A stretch of 64,000 bases of DNA from Nitrososphaerota archaeon (GTDB lineage Archaea > Thermoproteota > Nitrososphaeria > Nitrososphaerales > Nitrosopumilaceae), in assembly GCA_005877205.1 (NCBI GenBank), contig VBPL01000004.1, forward strand, positions 1 to 64,000, written 5' to 3'. Under the pieces are notes generated by a model, which worked only from the letters and a program-made list of their open reading frames with translations, did not search any database and had not been told where the DNA came from. Below, piece by piece: positions 31,290 to 54,662 of this stretch. The position numbers and the translations under genes were made by a program. Position 1 is the stretch's first letter; every line of letters starts with the position of its first letter.

Positions 31290-32453
31290 TCAGTTTGTGA
31301 GTGCTATTTTATGAAAATCGAAAAATTTGCATTTGCACTGATTTTCTAATATACTGCTGAGACTTGGTTCGACGTCTTGTCCGTTGACAAGTCTTTTTAT
31401 CGGTATGCCACCGTCTAATTCTACCAATATAGTGAAGGATTTGTCGGATTTTCGTTTCAGTTTTATTCCATAGATTCTCTTTTTATTTTTCCAGCTATGG
31501 TTTTCACGTAGTGATATAGACTGTTCTTTTAGATAGTGCAATGCCTTCAAAACATAAGGTTCGAGTTCGTTTTCTGTTTCTACTTCAAGCACAACTTGTG
31601 CTCTAAACTTAAGATGGTCTGATGGAATCTTTGAAATAACTCTAAGATTTAGAATGGAAATTCCATCAAGTGATATCTTGCGCGATAAAGTCAGGTTTCT
31701 TTTGTGTGGGTTTATTAGTTTTACAAAAAATGGCCTTCCTTTTCCCAGAACCAGACTTGACTCGTCCTCACTTCCTACCCATGTAATTTTTGCTTGCCGG
31801 CCTCCAAATTTATCAAACAAGAACTTGACAATCTTTCCTTCTACACTGTTAAAATCTGAAATGCCATGAAAATCACAGTGAAAACAACCTTTGCCTTCAC
31901 ATTGCCCACATGATTTTTGTTTTTGAGGAATGCCTCGAGCGTTTTTGGTATATCTTCCCTGCAATAGTACAGCCTTGGGTTTTATTTCGTATAGTTCCTT
32001 TTTGAAATCAATAGTAAGTACGACATCTGGATTGTTATAATCCACTTTTGTTCTTGTCTTTCTTCCAAAACGCTTTCCTATCTCTCTAGTTACTTCGCTC
32101 TTGATTCCAGCAATACCACGAAGTTTGAACTTTGATCGAATTATATCATCTCTATCAAGAATTGATGGCTTCAATATAGCCCCTACTAGAAACGTAGAGA
32201 ACTCGTATTCTTTTGAGATTTCAAGCATTTTTCTCAAGTGAATGTCTATATCAGACATGAGATTCTTGCAAATGTAGCATGATTTTGGATTTTTTTGCTT
32301 AAGGATGTATCGAATTTTTATTCCTAGTTTGTTGTAAGAGAGAACACCCAATCTTTTTGCAAACATCCTTCCGATACAATGATCACAAAGATGATGCTCT
32401 TGTAATATCTTTCTAGTATCCTCAATTACTTGTACCAGTTTTTCTTTCGTCAT
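31290..32453 (-). CDS. pus10: tRNA pseudouridine synthase Pus10
   Basis: Makes pseudouridine 54/55 in the T loop of archaeal tRNA. 387 residues. N-terminal THUMP-like region with zinc cysteines ('LCDHCIGRMF', 'CYICKNL'), a central 'CGQCEGKGCFHC', and the catalytic region 'GSEDESSLVLGKGRPFFVKL', where Asp of 'SED' matches the RED/RTD catalytic Asp but the preceding Arg is Ser. ATG at 32451-32453 preferred over an in-frame TTG 24 bases upstream. Confidence 0.9.
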   Translation of the reverse strand: MTKEKLVQVIEDTRKILQEHHLCDHCIGRMFAKRLGVLSYNKLGIKIRYILKQKNPKSCYICKNLMSDIDIHLRKMLEISKEYEFSTFLVGAILKPSILDRDDIIRSKFKLRGIAGIKSEVTREIGKRFGRKTRTKVDYNNPDVVLTIDFKKELYEIKPKAVLLQGRYTKNARGIPQKQKSCGQCEGKGCFHCDFHGISDFNSVEGKIVKFLFDKFGGRQAKITWVGSEDESSLVLGKGRPFFVKLINPHKRNLTLSRKISLDGISILNLRVISKIPSDHLKFRAQVVLEVETENELEPYVLKALHYLKEQSISLRENHSWKNKKRIYGIKLKRKSDKSFTILVELDGGIPIKRLVNGQDVEPSLSSILENQCKCKFFDFHKIALTN

Positions 32454-48110: not shown

Positions 48111-48734
48111 TTGCGATTAGTTGAACAATTAAGAAAAGAGGTGATAAAGAGAACTGCAAAAAATGATTCTGCCCACGATTTTGGACATATAGTAAGAGTA
48201 TACAAGAATGCCCAAACAATAGCTAGGAAGGAAAAGGCCAACATGAAACTTGTTCTTGCAGCAGCTCTGCTTCATGATATAGTTTGGTATCCAAAATCAG
48301 ATCCCCGCTCTAAGACTTCCTCAGTAAGTGGTGCAAAAGAGGCAAAAAGAATCCTCAAAAGATACAGATATTCTGTTGACGAAATTAAAATAATAACGGA
48401 AGCAATTAGAGATCACAGTTTCTCAAGAGGTGTTATCCCGCAAACCCTAGAAGGTAAAATATTACAGGATGCTGATAGGTTGGACGCAATAGGAGCAATA
48501 GGTATAGCAAGGGTTTTCTCAGTGGGTGGCACTGAAAAAAGATCATTTTACAATAGTGAGGATCCGTTTTGTAAATTTCGCGTTCCAGATGAAACAAAAT
48601 GGACGTTGGATCATTTTTACAAAAAACTTTTGCTCCTAGAGAAGAAGATGAATACGAAAACAGCTAAAAATGAAGAAAGACGAAGAATTAGAATAATGAA
48701 TCAGTTTCTAAGAGAATTTAAAAGAGAAATCTAG
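48111..48734 (+). CDS. HD-domain phosphohydrolase
   Basis: 207 residues. HD motif in 'AAALLHDIVWYPKSD', preceded by 'AHDFGHIVRVYKNAQTIA' and followed by 'ITEAIRDHSFSRG' and 'LQDADRLDAIGAIGIARVF', the full metal-binding H...HD...H...D pattern of YedJ/RdgC-like HD hydrolases. Substrate probably a nucleotide; unknown. TTG start at 48111 after a TATA box. Stop shared with the convergent neighbour (four bases). Confidence 0.88.
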   Translation: MRLVEQLRKEVIKRTAKNDSAHDFGHIVRVYKNAQTIARKEKANMKLVLAAALLHDIVWYPKSDPRSKTSSVSGAKEAKRILKRYRYSVDEIKIITEAIRDHSFSRGVIPQTLEGKILQDADRLDAIGAIGIARVFSVGGTEKRSFYNSEDPFCKFRVPDETKWTLDHFYKKLLLLEKKMNTKTAKNEERRRIRIMNQFLREFKREI

Positions 48735-49042
48735 CCGTATTCTATATATCTTTTGAATCGCTTTTCAATTTCTTGATTTTTTCCACCAAGTATTCGATCC
48801 ATCTCTTCTTGGTGTCTATTCTTTATGTGAATTATCATTTCTTTGAAATTTTCATTTTGTGGATATAGAGTAATTAATGGATCAAGTATTTTGAAATATT
48901 CTGCAACTTTTCTTCTAAACTCTTCCTGACTAGGCCTTCTTATTCTATTCATCCGGAACCAAATGGTAGCCCAACTAGCACCCACAACATGAGGTAAGAG
49001 ATCATAGGCACGGTCTATTTCGAATCCTTCGTCATCTCTCAT
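48731..49042 (-). CDS. Hypothetical protein downstream of hemB
   Basis: 103 residues, all-helical prediction, charged, with 'RRPSQEEFRRKVAEYFKILD' and C-terminal 'KNQEIEKRFKRYIEYG'. No cysteine motif. Its ATG overlaps the hemB stop (ATGA), so it is made with the tetrapyrrole genes; a role in that pathway is possible but unproven. Not recognised. Confidence 0.65.
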   Translation of the reverse strand: MRDDEGFEIDRAYDLLPHVVGASWATIWFRMNRIRRPSQEEFRRKVAEYFKILDPLITLYPQNENFKEMIIHIKNRHQEEMDRILGGKNQEIEKRFKRYIEYG

Positions 49043-50019
49043 TTCTCGTTAAGGACTTTTGAGGCACTCTTTGAGAAATATGTTACTATCATGTCGGCTC
49101 CTGCTCGCTTAATTGCGGTAAGAATTTCTAATGTCACTTCCTTTTCATCAACCCAGCCTTGCATGGCAGCTGCCTTTACCAGAGCATACTCGCCAGAGAC
49201 GCTGTACGCCGATATCGGTATGTTGAACTTTTCCCTAGTCATCGCAATTAGATCCAAGTAGGCTAGGGCTGGCTTTATCATAACAATATCAACCCCCTCG
49301 GCTATATCTGTCTCGACTTCGCGCATGGCTTCTTTTGGATTAGTATATGGTAATTGGTAGGTTTTCCTGTCTCCAAATTTTGGAGCAGAATGTGCCATGT
49401 CTTTGAATGGAGAGTATAACGACGATCGATGTTTTGCAGAATGCGACATTATTGCTACATCGGAAAACCCAGCATCATCTAGCGCCGTTCTTATCATTTT
49501 TACTTGGCCGTCCATCATTGCAGATGGCGATACTACATCTGTTCCAGATTGAGCTTGACTAACGGCAACTTTTGCCAAGGTTTCAAGACTGGAATCATTA
49601 TCTATCTTGTGACCTTTCACAAGACCGCAATGTCCTGCAGTCGTATATTGACAAAGACAGACATCTGCCATAATTGCGATTTCATTACCAAGATTCTTTC
49701 TTATTTCTGAAATTGCTTTCTGAACAATCCCGTCTTGAGCAAATGCAGAAGAACCTCTATCATCCTTACGCGATGGCATTCCAAAAACCATAATAGCTGG
49801 AATCTTCAATTCTACAATAGAATTTACTTCATCAACTACATCTTTTAGTGGAAGCCTTTCCATACCAGGCATTGATTCACCTTGAACTTTTGACTTCAAA
49901 TCCTCCTCAACAAAGATAGGACAAATAAGGTCTTTTGGGGAAAGTCTGACTTCTTCTAAGAGCTCACGAATTTTGCCAGTTTTTCGTAAACGACGAAGCC
50001 TCAGATTAGGAAAAGACAT
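49039..50019 (-). CDS. hemB: Porphobilinogen synthase
   Basis: Condenses two 5-aminolevulinate molecules. 326 residues. Zinc-type active site 'DVCLCQYTTAGHCGLV' with three cysteines, lysines in 'MSHSAKHRSSLYSPFKDMA' and in 'IVMIKPALAYLDLIA', and 'YSVSGEYALVKAAA'. ATG at 50017-50019, 34 bases after hemA. Confidence 0.95.
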   Translation of the reverse strand: MSFPNLRLRRLRKTGKIRELLEEVRLSPKDLICPIFVEEDLKSKVQGESMPGMERLPLKDVVDEVNSIVELKIPAIMVFGMPSRKDDRGSSAFAQDGIVQKAISEIRKNLGNEIAIMADVCLCQYTTAGHCGLVKGHKIDNDSSLETLAKVAVSQAQSGTDVVSPSAMMDGQVKMIRTALDDAGFSDVAIMSHSAKHRSSLYSPFKDMAHSAPKFGDRKTYQLPYTNPKEAMREVETDIAEGVDIVMIKPALAYLDLIAMTREKFNIPISAYSVSGEYALVKAAAMQGWVDEKEVTLEILTAIKRAGADMIVTYFSKSASKVLNEK

Positions 50020-50053
50020 TATACAAATTACGATTTACTAGCAATATAATTTG

Positions 50054-51310
50054 TTACTCTCTTGTTTTATAATTGAAGAGTTTGGTAACAGTTCTTAATA
50101 TTTCAGAATCCCCTTGTTCTGAAGCCTTTCTCAGGTTGTTCATTGGGGTTGACATAATATCTTCGACTATTGCCTGTGTGAGTTGGTCAATAATTCTTAT
50201 TTTCTGTTCGTCAGTCTCACCTAGCATCTGAAGAGCCTTTTTGAGTTCCTTTATTCTGGCCTGATCAATTTCCTTGAAAACGTTATTTACTATAGGTTCG
50301 ACTTGCACTCTTTTCATTACTGCTTCTACCACCGGCAGCTCTTCATTAATTATTTTCTCTGCAGATGACACTACACCTATTCTTGTTCTCATATTCTTGT
50401 CTACCATCTCTGCAATCTGATCCAAGTTCATCATTTTTATCTTCTTTATGGTTGTTACCCTTTCGTCAACTGTTCTTGGGTTAGAGAGATCCATTATTAG
50501 CATGCCTTTTTTGCGTGATTCCATTGCATTCTTTACTCTTTCATATGTAACTAAAAAGTATGGAGCAATTGTAGCGACAAATAGTACATCTACTAATTTG
50601 AAATTAGCCATGGCTTCTTCGAATTTGATTGGTCTGCCACCAACAGTTTCGGCAAATGCCTTGGAACGCTCAAAAGTTCTGCTTGTCACAGAGAAATCAA
50701 TTCCTCTTTTCTTAAGCGATTTTGCCACCAAACTTGCTGCTTCCCCTGTTCCTATCAAGAGTACGTGCTTTGACTTTAGGTCGTCAATGTTTTCTTCTGC
50801 TAGCTTTACTGCCATCGAACCTATGGAGATGCTTCCACGACTAATGCCAGTTGAACGCCTTACTCGTGTTCCAACGCGAATTGCCTTTTCAAATAGTGTA
50901 TTAAGGTTGTTTCCAGAGGCCCTAAATTCTTGTGCGGAATTAATGGACTCCTTGACTTGTCCTAGAATTTGCTCTTCGCCAACAACAAGAGAGTCTAGCC
51001 CTGATGTGAGCTTCAAAAGATGTTCAAATGCCTCAATTCCTTGACTTATCTCAAGGTTCTCCTTGAATGCATTTTCCTCAAGACCGGCTACGGATGCCCA
51101 TGTCTTCTTGATTCGTTCTATATCGGAGGTGGAACCGCATCCAAAAATCTCTACTCTGTTACAAGTCTGCAATATGACGCATTCTTGTAATCCAGAATGT
51201 TTCAGAAAAGATTGATAAGCAGAATCCAAGTCTCTTAAGGCGAACCTTTCAAGCATGTGGATTGGAGATCTCCTGAAGGTAACCCTAGCATTGATTATTT
51301 TTTTGGTCAG
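50054..51310 (-). CDS. hemA: Glutamyl-tRNA reductase, apparent CTG start
   Basis: Makes glutamate-1-semialdehyde from Glu-tRNA. Catalytic Cys in 'VILQTCNRVEIFG', 'SGLDSLVVGEEQILGQVK', NADPH loop 'VLLIGTGEAASLVAKSL'. The first ATG (51254-51256) drops the conserved N-terminus; 18 codons upstream encode 'KKIINARVTFRRSPIH', clearly the family start, and the frame holds no ATG, GTG or TTG there. A CTG at 51308-51310 overlaps the upstream stop as CTGA, giving 418 residues. C-terminal dimerisation helix present. Confidence 0.9.
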   Translation of the reverse strand: MTKKIINARVTFRRSPIHMLERFALRDLDSAYQSFLKHSGLQECVILQTCNRVEIFGCGSTSDIERIKKTWASVAGLEENAFKENLEISQGIEAFEHLLKLTSGLDSLVVGEEQILGQVKESINSAQEFRASGNNLNTLFEKAIRVGTRVRRSTGISRGSISIGSMAVKLAEENIDDLKSKHVLLIGTGEAASLVAKSLKKRGIDFSVTSRTFERSKAFAETVGGRPIKFEEAMANFKLVDVLFVATIAPYFLVTYERVKNAMESRKKGMLIMDLSNPRTVDERVTTIKKIKMMNLDQIAEMVDKNMRTRIGVVSSAEKIINEELPVVEAVMKRVQVEPIVNNVFKEIDQARIKELKKALQMLGETDEQKIRIIDQLTQAIVEDIMSTPMNNLRKASEQGDSEILRTVTKLFNYKTRE

Positions 51311-51999
51311 CTCATACCACCTAACATTTCAATCACTCTTTTCTGTGCTTTTTTTAAATTTCCGTCTTCTATTAATTGTTTAATATGATTGTCATTCATA
51401 ACACTATATAGGAACTTTTTGCGTGCGGGAAAGGTGGCAATTCTTGCCTTTGCCGCCCTTCGGGCAAAATCCTGCAGTTTTATTTGATAAATGTCCTCCT
51501 TTCTGACTAGCTTTTTGAAGACTTTTTCTGCTTGGATTCTTAGCTTGCGCGCCATTGCGGGACTTCGTCCACCAGTAGATACGGCTATCTGAACAGTATC
51601 TTGTATATTTATGACCGAGCCAAATGCAAAGTCACTGACCTCTGGATCATCAGCAGCATAAGCATAACATCTCATCTTTTTTGCTTGTTCGACTATCTTC
51701 CTGTTCAATTCCCGATCGTCTGTTGTAGCAAGGACCATGAAAGGTTTATATTTTTTCAAAAAATCGGCATTTTTTAGCTTCATTTTTTTGAAAGTGACTT
51801 TCCTCTCTTTGACATAATTTTCAATCTGTTTGTTTGTTGAATCGCTGACAAGTAGAATTTTACAATCCTGGGTAAGTAATGCATTGACTTTCTTTAGACC
51901 TTCATTTCCTCCCCCTACTACAACTACCAAATTTCCCTTTAGGTTCAGGTCAACTATCAACGAATTTCGCTGCCTTTGCATGATATTTATAGATTCCAT
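51307..51999 (-). CDS. Precorrin-2 dehydrogenase (Met8/CysG-N type)
   Basis: NAD-dependent oxidation of precorrin-2 to sirohydrochlorin, possibly with ferrochelatase activity. 230 residues: 'VVVVGGGNEGLKKVNALL' Rossmann loop, 'MVLATTDDRELNRKIVEQA', 'SDFAFGSVINIQDTVQIAVS' and 'TGGRSPAMARKLR'. ATG at 51997-51999, with an internal ATG at 51981 as alternative. Divergent from ahbAB and upstream of hemA, in a siroheme/heme unit. Confidence 0.9.
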   Translation of the reverse strand: MESINIMQRQRNSLIVDLNLKGNLVVVVGGGNEGLKKVNALLTQDCKILLVSDSTNKQIENYVKERKVTFKKMKLKNADFLKKYKPFMVLATTDDRELNRKIVEQAKKMRCYAYAADDPEVSDFAFGSVINIQDTVQIAVSTGGRSPAMARKLRIQAEKVFKKLVRKEDIYQIKLQDFARRAAKARIATFPARKKFLYSVMNDNHIKQLIEDGNLKKAQKRVIEMLGGMS

Positions 52000-52015
52000 G
52001 AAAATCTAGGTAACA

Positions 52016-52024
52016 TTTTTAATT
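52016..52024 (+). promoter_or_regulatory. TATA box of ahbAB (and near that of the divergent precorrin-2 gene)
   Basis: TTTTTAATT, 27-35 bases before the ATG at 52051. On the minus strand the same AT-rich stretch lies about 20 bases before the ATG at 51999, so one short region may serve both directions. Confidence 0.45.
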
Positions 52025-52050
52025 GCAAGATGGATTGGTTTTTTGTATCT

Positions 52051-53073
52051 ATGGACAAGCTGGATAAGGAAATTCTAAACGAGATCCAATGGACATTTCC
52101 TCTTGTTCTTAGACCATACTCTGAAATTGCAAAAAAATTTCATATCTCAGATGAAGAGATAATGCAAAGACTTCGAATGCTCAAAGAAAAGGGAATAATC
52201 AGGCAGCTAAGTGCCATTTTTGATACTAGGAAATTGGGATACAAAAGCGCATTAGTTGCAATGGCAATAGAGCCTGAGAAACTAGAACGTGTTGCTAATC
52301 AGATAAACAGACATCCCGGTGTTAGTCACAATTATGAAAGAAACCACGAGTATAATCTATGGTTCACTCTTGCCGTTCCGCCTGGTTCAGATCTGAAATC
52401 AGAAATAGACAAGTTCTCAAAGTTATCAGGAATTAAAAAAACAAGATTGCTTCCAACCATTAAGTTATTCAAGATTGGAGTAAAGCTTGAGATGGTGGAC
52501 GAAAAAAAATCTGAGGTCAAACCCACTGAAGAAAAGAAAAGTATTCAGGAAGTAAAGTTTGTTGCCACAGAAGAAGACAAGAACTACATTCGTGAATTAC
52601 AAAAGGACTTGGAGATTATAGAAATGCCGTTCTTGAAATCAGCTCAGAATCTTGGAATAACAGAAGAACAGCTTCTTGAAAAGGCAAAATACTATGAAGG
52701 AATCGGCGTCATGCGAAGGTTCGCTGCCATTTTAAGACATAGAGAGGCAGGATTTATAGCAAATGGTATGATTGTGTGGAAGGTACCAACGGAAAGAATT
52801 GACTATATTGGCGCCAAGCTTGGTGCGTTCCCACAGATTAGTCATTGTTATCAAAGGCCAGTTTATCCTGATTGGCCATACAACGTATTTTCCATGGTTC
52901 ACTGCAAAAGCATCGAAGATGCAGAAGACATGGCAAAACAGATTCAAGAGCAAATAGGTATAGAGGATTACAAGATTCTCTTTAGCTCACGAGAATTCAA
53001 GAAAACAAGAGTTGAATACTTTGTAGAACATGAATTTGATATAGAAGAACCGATCAAAGCGTACCTAAACTAA
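52051..53073 (+). CDS. ahbAB: Fused siroheme decarboxylase AhbA-AhbB
   Basis: Removes two acetate carboxyls from siroheme to give didecarboxysiroheme in the alternative heme pathway. 340 residues with two Lrp-like halves. The first half has 'PLVLRPYSEIAKKF', 'RQLSAIFDTRKLGYKS' and 'HNYERNHEYNLWFTL' (AhbA type); the second has 'RRFAAILRHREAGFIANGM' and 'CYQRPVYPDWPYNVFSMVH' (AhbB type). A charged linker joins them. The ATG at 52051 fits the TATA box; in-frame ATGs upstream would add an unrelated leader. Confidence 0.9.
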   Translation: MDKLDKEILNEIQWTFPLVLRPYSEIAKKFHISDEEIMQRLRMLKEKGIIRQLSAIFDTRKLGYKSALVAMAIEPEKLERVANQINRHPGVSHNYERNHEYNLWFTLAVPPGSDLKSEIDKFSKLSGIKKTRLLPTIKLFKIGVKLEMVDEKKSEVKPTEEKKSIQEVKFVATEEDKNYIRELQKDLEIIEMPFLKSAQNLGITEEQLLEKAKYYEGIGVMRRFAAILRHREAGFIANGMIVWKVPTERIDYIGAKLGAFPQISHCYQRPVYPDWPYNVFSMVHCKSIEDAEDMAKQIQEQIGIEDYKILFSSREFKKTRVEYFVEHEFDIEEPIKAYLN

Positions 53074-53121: not shown

Positions 53122-54120
53122 TTACGCTGTCTGAACCGATGCTTTAAGCTCGTATGGAGGCCATTGATTGAATAAGCTAATGGCTTCATTCTTGTCTGTA
53201 TCATTAAGGTATTTTCCATCAGACATCTGGCAAAACATGGTAATTTCTTCTTCGCTGACAACCGTTGGTAACACTGATGATACTGCCCCATGTGATAAGA
53301 TGAATTTGATGGCAAGTTCAGTCATGTTAAGACCATTTCGCTTCGCAATTGGCGTTAATTGATCTACTTTCTGCAGTGATTGCTTTACCCATTCGCCTGT
53401 TCTAACAGAACGATGATCCTTTTCACTGATCTTTGTGTCTGCGTTTACCTTACCGGTCAATATTCCAGAGGCATCCGGAACTCGTACCAATATACCAACA
53501 TTGTGCTTTTCAGCAGCTCCTATCAATGTGTTGCCAGGATTTTGCTCCAGAATGTTGTAGACGGTTTGTACCGCTGTGGCATTGGTCCTTTCCATGGATT
53601 CTAGCCCTTCATCTATCCAACCTATGGCTGGACCTAATGCAATCTGATAACTTTTGATTATTCCTTCCTTCATCTTTTTGTCCAGAGTTTCAAAAATTTT
53701 CTTGTCTCTGATTGTATGTATTTTGGGATTGTGTAAACCATAAACATCAACGTAGTCAGTTTGTAGTCGCTCTAAGCTCTTTTGCAGGGCAAATTCGGTA
53801 AATTCAGGAGTAAATTTCTGAGGAAGCTCCTTGTGTCCTATCTGCTCGTCCCCGTAGATATCGTAACCATATTTGGTGGAGATTACTAGCTCGTTTCTCA
53901 TTCCAGAAAATACTTCTCCTATCAGCTTCTCGCTTTTACCTCTACCGTAAATGTCGCCTGTCTCAAAATAATTAATTCCTAGATCATATGCTAGATTCAA
54001 CATTCTTTTTGCTTCATCATCTTCAATTTTCTTGCCCCACCAGTCAAGACCCAAAGTCCATGCTCCAAAACCTATTTCTGATACCTTTATTCCGCTTCTA
54101 CCTAGTGTTCTATACTTCAA
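53122..54120 (-). CDS. Aldo/keto reductase
   Basis: 332-residue NADPH-dependent oxidoreductase. Catalytic Asp/Tyr in 'YFETGDIYGRGKSEKLIG', Lys in 'VISTKYGYD', His in 'DVYGLHNPKI', and cofactor region 'ILVRVPDASGILTGK'. TTG start at 54118-54120 inside the end of the DUF1802 gene (TTGA overlap). Its substrate is unknown; co-transcription with the HemQ-like gene hints at tetrapyrrole or redox metabolism. Confidence 0.9.
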   Translation of the reverse strand: MKYRTLGRSGIKVSEIGFGAWTLGLDWWGKKIEDDEAKRMLNLAYDLGINYFETGDIYGRGKSEKLIGEVFSGMRNELVISTKYGYDIYGDEQIGHKELPQKFTPEFTEFALQKSLERLQTDYVDVYGLHNPKIHTIRDKKIFETLDKKMKEGIIKSYQIALGPAIGWIDEGLESMERTNATAVQTVYNILEQNPGNTLIGAAEKHNVGILVRVPDASGILTGKVNADTKISEKDHRSVRTGEWVKQSLQKVDQLTPIAKRNGLNMTELAIKFILSHGAVSSVLPTVVSEEEITMFCQMSDGKYLNDTDKNEAISLFNQWPPYELKASVQTA

Positions 54121-54662
54121 TTTACAATTCTCCTAAATTCTAGTAGTTTTTGTTGAAGCTCAGCCTCACTCAAAACTGTTTTTCCAGCTTCTGCATTTAC
54201 ATTTAATTCTATCCAAGATTTGCAACCGTGATATTCAGGGAGAATTGGAATCTCAGTAGCTGGAATCTTGTGCACCTTTAGAAATATCGCTGTCATTGGT
54301 TTTTCCGGCATCCAGTTCATCCTTTCCACCATGTAGGAATCACTCCAGATATGGAACGGCGACAGTTTCTCTATTTTCTCCATGGAAACAATGTCGCGTT
54401 CCTCTAAGACTTCGGCAAAAGACGTTATTTTGTTTACGCCATCTTTTGGTTTGTTTTCTCTTGCATCCGCAAGATATTGATAATATTGGGATTTGAGCGA
54501 GGCGTTGTCTTGGTGCTCATAGGTGGGAAATAATGCGAATTTTTCTGATTCTACTTTAAAGCCCGAGGCCGTTTCAAGAATTCCACCTTTTCGTAACAAG
54601 ACAGTCTGATTACCATTTTCAAGTGCTTGTACAACAGTGGCCCATTCCTTTAATGCCTTCAT
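54117..54662 (-). CDS. DUF1802-family protein
   Basis: 181 residues from the ATG at 54660-54662, which shares one base with the HemQ-like stop. 'ALKEWATVVQALENGNQTVL' and 'LRKGGILE' begin the family domain; 'HQDNASLKSQYY' and 'MPEKPMTAIFLKVHKIP' follow. Function unknown; close linkage to the HemQ-like and aldo/keto reductase genes is the only clue. A longer in-frame start at 54707 would lie inside the upstream gene. Confidence 0.72.
   Translation of the reverse strand: MKALKEWATVVQALENGNQTVLLRKGGILETASGFKVESEKFALFPTYEHQDNASLKSQYYQYLADARENKPKDGVNKITSFAEVLEERDIVSMEKIEKLSPFHIWSDSYMVERMNWMPEKPMTAIFLKVHKIPATEIPILPEYHGCKSWIELNVNAEAGKTVLSEAELQQKLLEFRRIVN

Follow-up and report, generated by a model that had tools for sequence, protein, structure and literature searches.

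The infC gene of bacteria starts with AUU. To our knowledge, prokaryotic start-codon counts contain next to no AUA, and the common gene finders known to us do not offer CUG or AUA as starts. CUG is a weak and rare start codon: in a bacterial measurement cited in PMC11497404 its output was 0.86% of that of AUG, the same part of that source puts CUG at 0.024% of bacterial starts, and switches from AUG to CUG numbered 2 of 61,358 in the corresponding section of PMC5622118. Because of this weak output and rarity, any proposed CUG start has low prior odds. Gene pairs translated by termination and reinitiation form the second group of described systems, and in them overlaps of four nucleotides (-4) far outnumber every other arrangement (PMC10666635). 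The passages of that paper concerned with overlap types list ATGA or GTGA, and there a non-canonical ATT is named only as a possible source of the rare -5 overlaps. Reinitiation at non-canonical codons is treated, for a eukaryotic system, in the relevant part of PMC4648390.

The hemA gene of the archaeal genus Nitrosotalea shares features with both groups. As with infC and the switches tabulated in PMC5622118, a codon one base away from AUG appears to open a conserved gene; it differs from them in that the codon is CUG or AUA, is found in most genomes of a genus, belongs to an archaeal heme gene and has, by parsimony, been switched eight times at one column. The four-nucleotide overlap of stop and start, the common strand and the Shine-Dalgarno (SD) site within the upstream gene resemble the termination-reinitiation pairs as outlined in PMC10666635, from which hemA is set apart by a start that is CTG, ATA or TTG in part of the genus. 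Unlike the product of an autoregulated weak start of the infC type, HemA is not an initiation factor. Near-cognate starts are known; an archaeal biosynthesis gene that opens with CUG or AUA in most members of a genus is a rare addition to them. The literature searched, with most subscription papers lying outside it, contained no paper joining Nitrosotalea with the start codon, and nowhere in it were starts at CUG, AUA or AUU reported for the lineage.

The hemA gene and its open frame

The DNA analyzed, here called the window, is a stretch of 64,000 nucleotides (contig VBPL01000004.1) from a Nitrososphaerota archaeon of a genus identified by record titles as Nitrosotalea. Its hemA gene occupies positions 50054-51310 of the minus strand (418 codons counted from the CTG) and was assigned with TIGR01035 and Pfam profiles. 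The product matched TIGR01035 over its full length with 335 bits (curated cut-off, 209.55), its GlutR_N, Shikimate_DH and GlutR_dimer domains (PF05201, PF01488, PF00745) are all three present, and the translation carries QTCNRVE, including the cysteine of the TCNR motif, which is presumably catalytic. By profile, the HemA of the window is an ordinary glutamyl-tRNA reductase; only its start codon is unusual. The gene before it on the minus strand (51307-51999; TIGR01470, 112 bits) encodes a siroheme synthase N-terminal, precorrin-2 dehydrogenase-like protein. The open frame after it (49039-50019, minus strand) was recognized by eye and is taken to be hemB (5-aminolevulinate dehydratase-like).

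Read along the minus strand, the hemA frame runs TGA (51331-51329) AAT GTT AGG TGG TAT GAG CTG (51310-51308) ACC AAA AAA ATA ATC AAT and on to ATG (51256-51254). The original prediction was that no ATG, GTG or TTG precedes the first ATG of the open frame, and none lies between the TGA that closes the frame upstream (51329-51331, minus strand) and the ATG at 51254-51256 (minus strand), which is residue 19 counted from the CTG and is GCG or ACA in the two nearest relatives. The claim that conserved hemA sequence extends 18 codons 5' of this ATG also held, the CTG being placed exactly there. The CTG (51308-51310, minus strand) is part of a CTGA (51307-51310) that overlaps the TGA of the preceding gene by four nucleotides, just as had been proposed from the ATGA pairs elsewhere in the window (for example, 49039-50019 with 48731-49042). 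In relatives the same column is ATG, CTG, TTG or ATA. The bare CTGA shape is weak evidence, because the TG of the CTG is dictated by the overlapping stop codon; what gives the case for a CTG start its weight is the evidence of the relatives and the conservation of coding sequence 5' of ATG19, not the CTGA spelling. Restricted codon spelling was also considered as a sign of constraint and dropped, since the overlapping stop imposes TG or TA.

The start column in relatives

The hemA gene was found in 248 of the 250 genomes of the family, and its start was read in 111 loci, 110 of them taken from the genome set and one (L150) from a named record, which a tree of the preceding gene plus hemA assigned to the sister group TA-20. 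In Nitrosotalea the start is visible in 36 of 37 genomes, and the column holds CTG in 20, ATG in 12, TTG in two and ATA in two. Going by record titles, the genomes with CTG include Ca. N. devanaterra (LN890280.1) and Ca. N. bavarica. All four TA-20 loci have ATA, with no other standard start near. The 71 loci of other genera have ATG (67), GTG (one), TTG (one) or ATA (two).

An ATG at another place in relatives had been named as the observation that would count against a CTG start. Within the genus the start column stood up to it: in all 12 ATG genomes the codon sits at this very column, and none of the 40 Nitrosotalea and TA-20 loci has a standard start upstream. Outside the genus it held less well; 58 of the 71 loci have a second possible start upstream of the column, usually two codons before it, and the true hemA start is therefore less certain there. 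Of the 28 loci with CTG or ATA, 25 lack any other standard start nearby. The exceptions are L004, which has a GTG at residue 5 and is the only one among the 20 CTG loci, and L042 and L073, in which ATA stands at the column, AGGTGA keeps its usual distance from it and an ATG immediately follows the SD site, two codons before the column.

Neighboring genes behave differently. For 12 of them, a standard start near the aligned start was absent in 2 of 342 gene-by-locus cases, both in an Lrp-like gene with GTG at the aligned column and both probably test artefacts; by the same test it was absent from hemA in 23 of 36 named loci (33 of the genus and three of TA-20). Separately, the window gene at 54117-54662 has ATA at its start column in one of 30 named loci and ATG in the other 29. 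One further irregularity was seen among the hemA loci: the frame of L123 (Nitrosotalea sp. FS) has 467 codons, and the two matches in G036 overlap by 48 query residues (83-130), as if by tandem duplication or misassembly.

The earlier claim that hemA starts at the CTG within the overlap is supported. The analysis shows that other standard starts are missing, that codons 6-18 are conserved as translated sequence, that the column is fixed and that the overlap and the SD site are present; initiation at CUG, its coupling to the upstream gene and the N-terminal residue are what we infer.

A Shine-Dalgarno site before the column and the proposed mode of initiation

A Shine-Dalgarno-like AGGTG lies at 51318-51322 on the minus strand, 7 nt before the CTG. 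The 3' end of the 16S rRNA reads GGATCACCTCC (locus L176, genome G013), and AGGTGATC or part of it is found in one register 5' of the column in most Nitrosotalea loci and in all TA-20 loci; the window's own site is short (AGGTG), and in most relatives within the genus it extends up to AGGTGATC. An exact SD complement of at least 5 nt precedes the column in all 28 loci with CTG or ATA as against 24 of 83 with ATG, GTG or TTG, and at a threshold of at least 6 nt the counts are 25 of 28 and 13 of 83, in a set of related loci that are not phylogenetically independent. Eleven of the 24 standard loci with an SD site belong to the genus, and 10 belong to genus g34, where the site is 10 nt from the column. 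Within Nitrosotalea the SD site is broken only in three genomes (L024, L025, L028), all with ATG, and L073, an ATA locus of g34, has AGGTGA together with it. A genome-wide SD census gave 26 SD/ORF pairs, four of them with a standard start in range, which is too few for a start-codon statistic. In the part of PMC5622118 that deals with SD strength, the site is more conserved or stronger at GUG and UUG starts overall, and in Archaea significantly so only for UUG compared with AUG.

The best reading of this arrangement is that hemA is very probably translated from the CTG at 51308-51310 by SD-anchored, termination-coupled initiation at CUG with the initiator Met-tRNA. The SD site within the last codons of the preceding gene and the overlap with its stop would together position the ribosome at the CUG. 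The CUG and the last codon of the upstream protein have one base in common, the third of that codon, and a terminating ribosome would need to shift by two bases. The initiator tRNA would pair with CUG despite the mismatch at the first base, and HemA would begin with methionine, which would probably be removed because residue 2 is threonine. With the position of the start fixed by the SD site and the overlap, the first base of the start codon would be free to drift, giving ATG, CTG, TTG and ATA at one column. The comparison suggests that the positioning of the ribosome, more than the start codon itself, marks the beginning of HemA, and coupling predicts that translation of hemA depends on translation of the upstream gene.

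Evolution of the column and of the stop overlap

The overlap with the preceding gene is -4 nt in 107 of the 111 loci and -1 nt (TAATG) in four (L005, L184, L185, L193). The stop of the preceding gene is TGA in 30 of 33 loci (three steps), and its end position has moved by one codon in one. Free stops of neighboring genes show up to 11 steps, and some are equally constant, such as hemA's own TAA in 31 of 32 loci. Most relatives within the genus have an in-frame stop 1-3 codons before the start column.

CTGA does not serve as a general start in Nitrosotalea: in a sample of 400 kb from N. devanaterra, the 25 TGA-type four-nucleotide overlaps comprised 17 ATGA, six TTGA, two GTGA and no CTGA. Other TGA-ending genes in that sample end in CTGA in 12 of 40 cases. 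The gene finder behind the overlap count was crude; it called 268 genes in the 400 kb and missed the hemA pair of the window. Its one CTGA pair in the window is near plus-strand base 31292, where coding begins about 26 codons later.

Parsimony placed eight changes at the hemA column within the genus, with CTG at the base; with seven outgroup loci added there were 10 changes, with ATA at the root of that small tree. ATG has returned at least once within a CTG clade (L020). Slow evolution of the first base was sought at this column and not found (seven steps, against means of 6.1 and 6.5 for synonymous sites). Where the first base is free, C outnumbers T by 20 to 2, a skew shown by only 6 of 242 comparable third-position columns when this column is counted among them.

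These observations bear on whether selection retains the weak start as a throttle on HemA, comparable to the AUU of infC, or whether it drifts neutrally. Selection of this kind is a minority view that we would nevertheless keep in play: the preference for C over T and the reconstruction of CTG as the ancestral state of the genus speak for it, but the returns to ATG and the synonymous-like rate fit drift under a good SD site equally well. That the weak codon holds HemA synthesis low is a guess. A search of positions 49900-52600 against Rfam for an RNA element at the junction gave no match up to E = 1.

Other readings of the hemA start

Initiation might instead occur at another near-cognate codon nearby, such as the isoleucine codon of INARV (residue 6) or the ATA at residue 5 of the window. 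The codons at residues 5 and 6 (ATC, ATT or ATA) are near-cognate as well, and another gene of the lineage seems to use ATT. Residue 6, however, varies as an ordinary codon does (ATC in 24 loci, ATT in six, ATA in four and GTA in one), and the CTG column is indicated both by its distance from the SD site and by where relatives of the genus have their ATG, which makes a start at these codons improbable.

A start at the internal ATG would make the conservation upstream of it a relic. This ATG is the first standard start, and residue 19 is ATG in 33 of 35 loci. Substitutions were counted on the tree of the preceding gene plus hemA in 35 loci of the genus: codons 6-18 (INARVTFRxSPIH) have undergone 78 changes at third positions against 4+2 at positions 1 and 2, with four amino-acid changes. 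As the changes concentrate at third positions, codons 6-18 are translated in the hemA frame, and the preceding gene, which has already ended there, is not the cause of their conservation. The pattern of substitution thus marks the stretch before ATG19 clearly as translated protein, and this strong constraint across 35 loci argues against a relic. The ATG is also absent from the two nearest relatives (L002, L003), in which residue 19 is Ala or Thr. Their next ATG, GTG or TTG is at residue 36 in L002 and residue 61 in L003, and a start at 61 would lose QTCNRVE. A start at ATG19 would in addition cut residues that align with a solved glutamyl-tRNA reductase (residue 5, counted from the CTG, aligns with residue 4 of the 1gpj chain), and the relatives of the genus with ATG start at the CTG column. 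Taken together, these points leave the internal start with very little probability.

HemA could also be made as a fusion to the preceding protein, by a -1 slip before the TGA. The frames overlap by 4 nt and both proteins act in tetrapyrrole synthesis, but the last codon before the TGA varies among the CTG relatives (AAC, ATC, ACC, GGC, AGC), so that there is no constant slippery sequence, and other members of the genus have ATG at this place; a frameshift seems slightly less probable still than an internal start.

An error of sequencing or assembly masking a standard start can practically be dismissed: the window's genome is in 98 contigs and an A7 run (51298-51304), which the original prediction had singled out for resequencing, adjoins the start, but CTG is found in 20 of 36 genomes of the genus from different studies, one of them the single-contig Ca. 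Nitrosotalea devanaterra LN890280.1 (L119, the same place as L026), and the nearest two relatives (protein identity 90% and 89%) have the same number of codons around the A7 run without the homopolymer (ACC AAT GAA ATA ATC), which speaks against an indel artefact.

Other candidate genes of the lineage without a standard start

A 400 kb sample of N. devanaterra (362 called genes) was scanned for coding before the first standard start, and five of the best 25 candidates were examined. An FKBP and a flavin reductase were dropped, as each has a TTG before the domain; the other candidates were an ABC1/UbiB-type kinase, an M50 peptidase and an Lhr-type helicase.

The ABC1/UbiB-like kinase (L175:15008-16579, minus strand; relatives L230-L259 and L289-L313) has matches in 36 of the 37 Nitrosotalea genomes. 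Its start column was read in 30 loci and holds ATT in 28, ATC in one and ATA in one; in 29 of the 30 there is no ATG, GTG or TTG at or before the column back to the stop. An SD complement of at least 5 nt (AGGAGG-like) ends 7-9 nt before the column in 24 of 30, and the codons after the column are conserved as protein. ATT is also the codon in two of two TA-20 loci. Twenty-six of 30 searched genomes elsewhere in the family were matched, one of which lacks the start, and 23 further family loci have ATG (12, spread over many other genera), GTG (two), TTG (two), ATA (two), TTT (two, both from genomes of genus g39), TTA (one), CTG (one) or TCA (one); a standard codon lies 1-5 codons upstream in L293, L303, L312 and L313. 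Unlike in hemA, no NTGA overlap dictates the spelling of this column, and ATT has been kept nonetheless. From its sequence, the kinase would seem to be a clean second case of a conserved non-standard (ATT) start.

The M50 peptidase (L173:11935-13038, plus strand; relatives L260-L287) is present in 29 of 37 genomes. Among the 28 loci read, part of the genus has TTG, GTG, ATG or CTG at one column, and many N. devanaterra-clade loci carry an in-frame stop beside the column, with their first standard start as far as about 50 codons downstream; a candidate near-cognate start is the ATA that lies two codons past the column. The Lhr-type helicase (L157:8927-11671, plus strand; relatives L200-L229) is present in all 37 genomes. 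Of 28 loci read at the start, 14 have a TTG before the protein; in 14 on the N. devanaterra side that place is taken by a stop, and their first standard start lies at residue 49-121. The helicase frame also overlaps the apparent end of the upstream gene. When the 362 genes were compared with samples from G006 and the window, 130 pairs were usable and 52 were flagged, many of them due to alignments running into non-coding DNA; the 22 flagged pairs with the longest stretches contained no further clear case.

A bolder reading, offered tentatively and with somewhat less than even confidence, is that the lineage of Nitrosotalea and TA-20 has a relaxed choice of start codon, with the SD site (and in hemA also the stop overlap) fixing the start of SD-led internal genes. 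The starts in question would be CUG, AUA and UUG in hemA, AUU and AUC in the ABC1/UbiB kinase and perhaps AUA or CUG in the M50 peptidase. Two good genes and two doubtful ones stand behind it.

The part of PMC6237735 concerned with aIF1 reports that this factor destabilizes complexes on non-AUG mRNA. Its loss was ruled out: PF01253 matched in 30 of 30 genomes, and the sequence is well conserved (29 of 30 read). Among the aIF1 sequences (L355-L384), Nitrosotalea, TA-20 and g39 share a change of GLDPK to G(I/V)NPK and of GGTA to, mostly, GGTV, which is absent in most of the other genera read.

Implications

HemA is the first enzyme of heme and vitamin B12 synthesis in these ammonia-oxidizing archaea, and in Nitrosotalea its annotated length may well fall short by 18 or more residues. 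A column that has wandered among AUG, CUG, UUG and AUA while the overlap, the SD site and the protein remained nearly fixed amounts to a natural experiment on how archaeal starts are marked. Together, the CTG of hemA and the ATT of the ABC1 kinase suggest a property of the lineage that is directly testable. If relaxed choice of the start codon proves true, databases would systematically give wrong starts for genes of this kind, and the lineage would offer a natural setting for asking how start-codon choice is controlled by aIF1 and the initiator tRNA in archaea.
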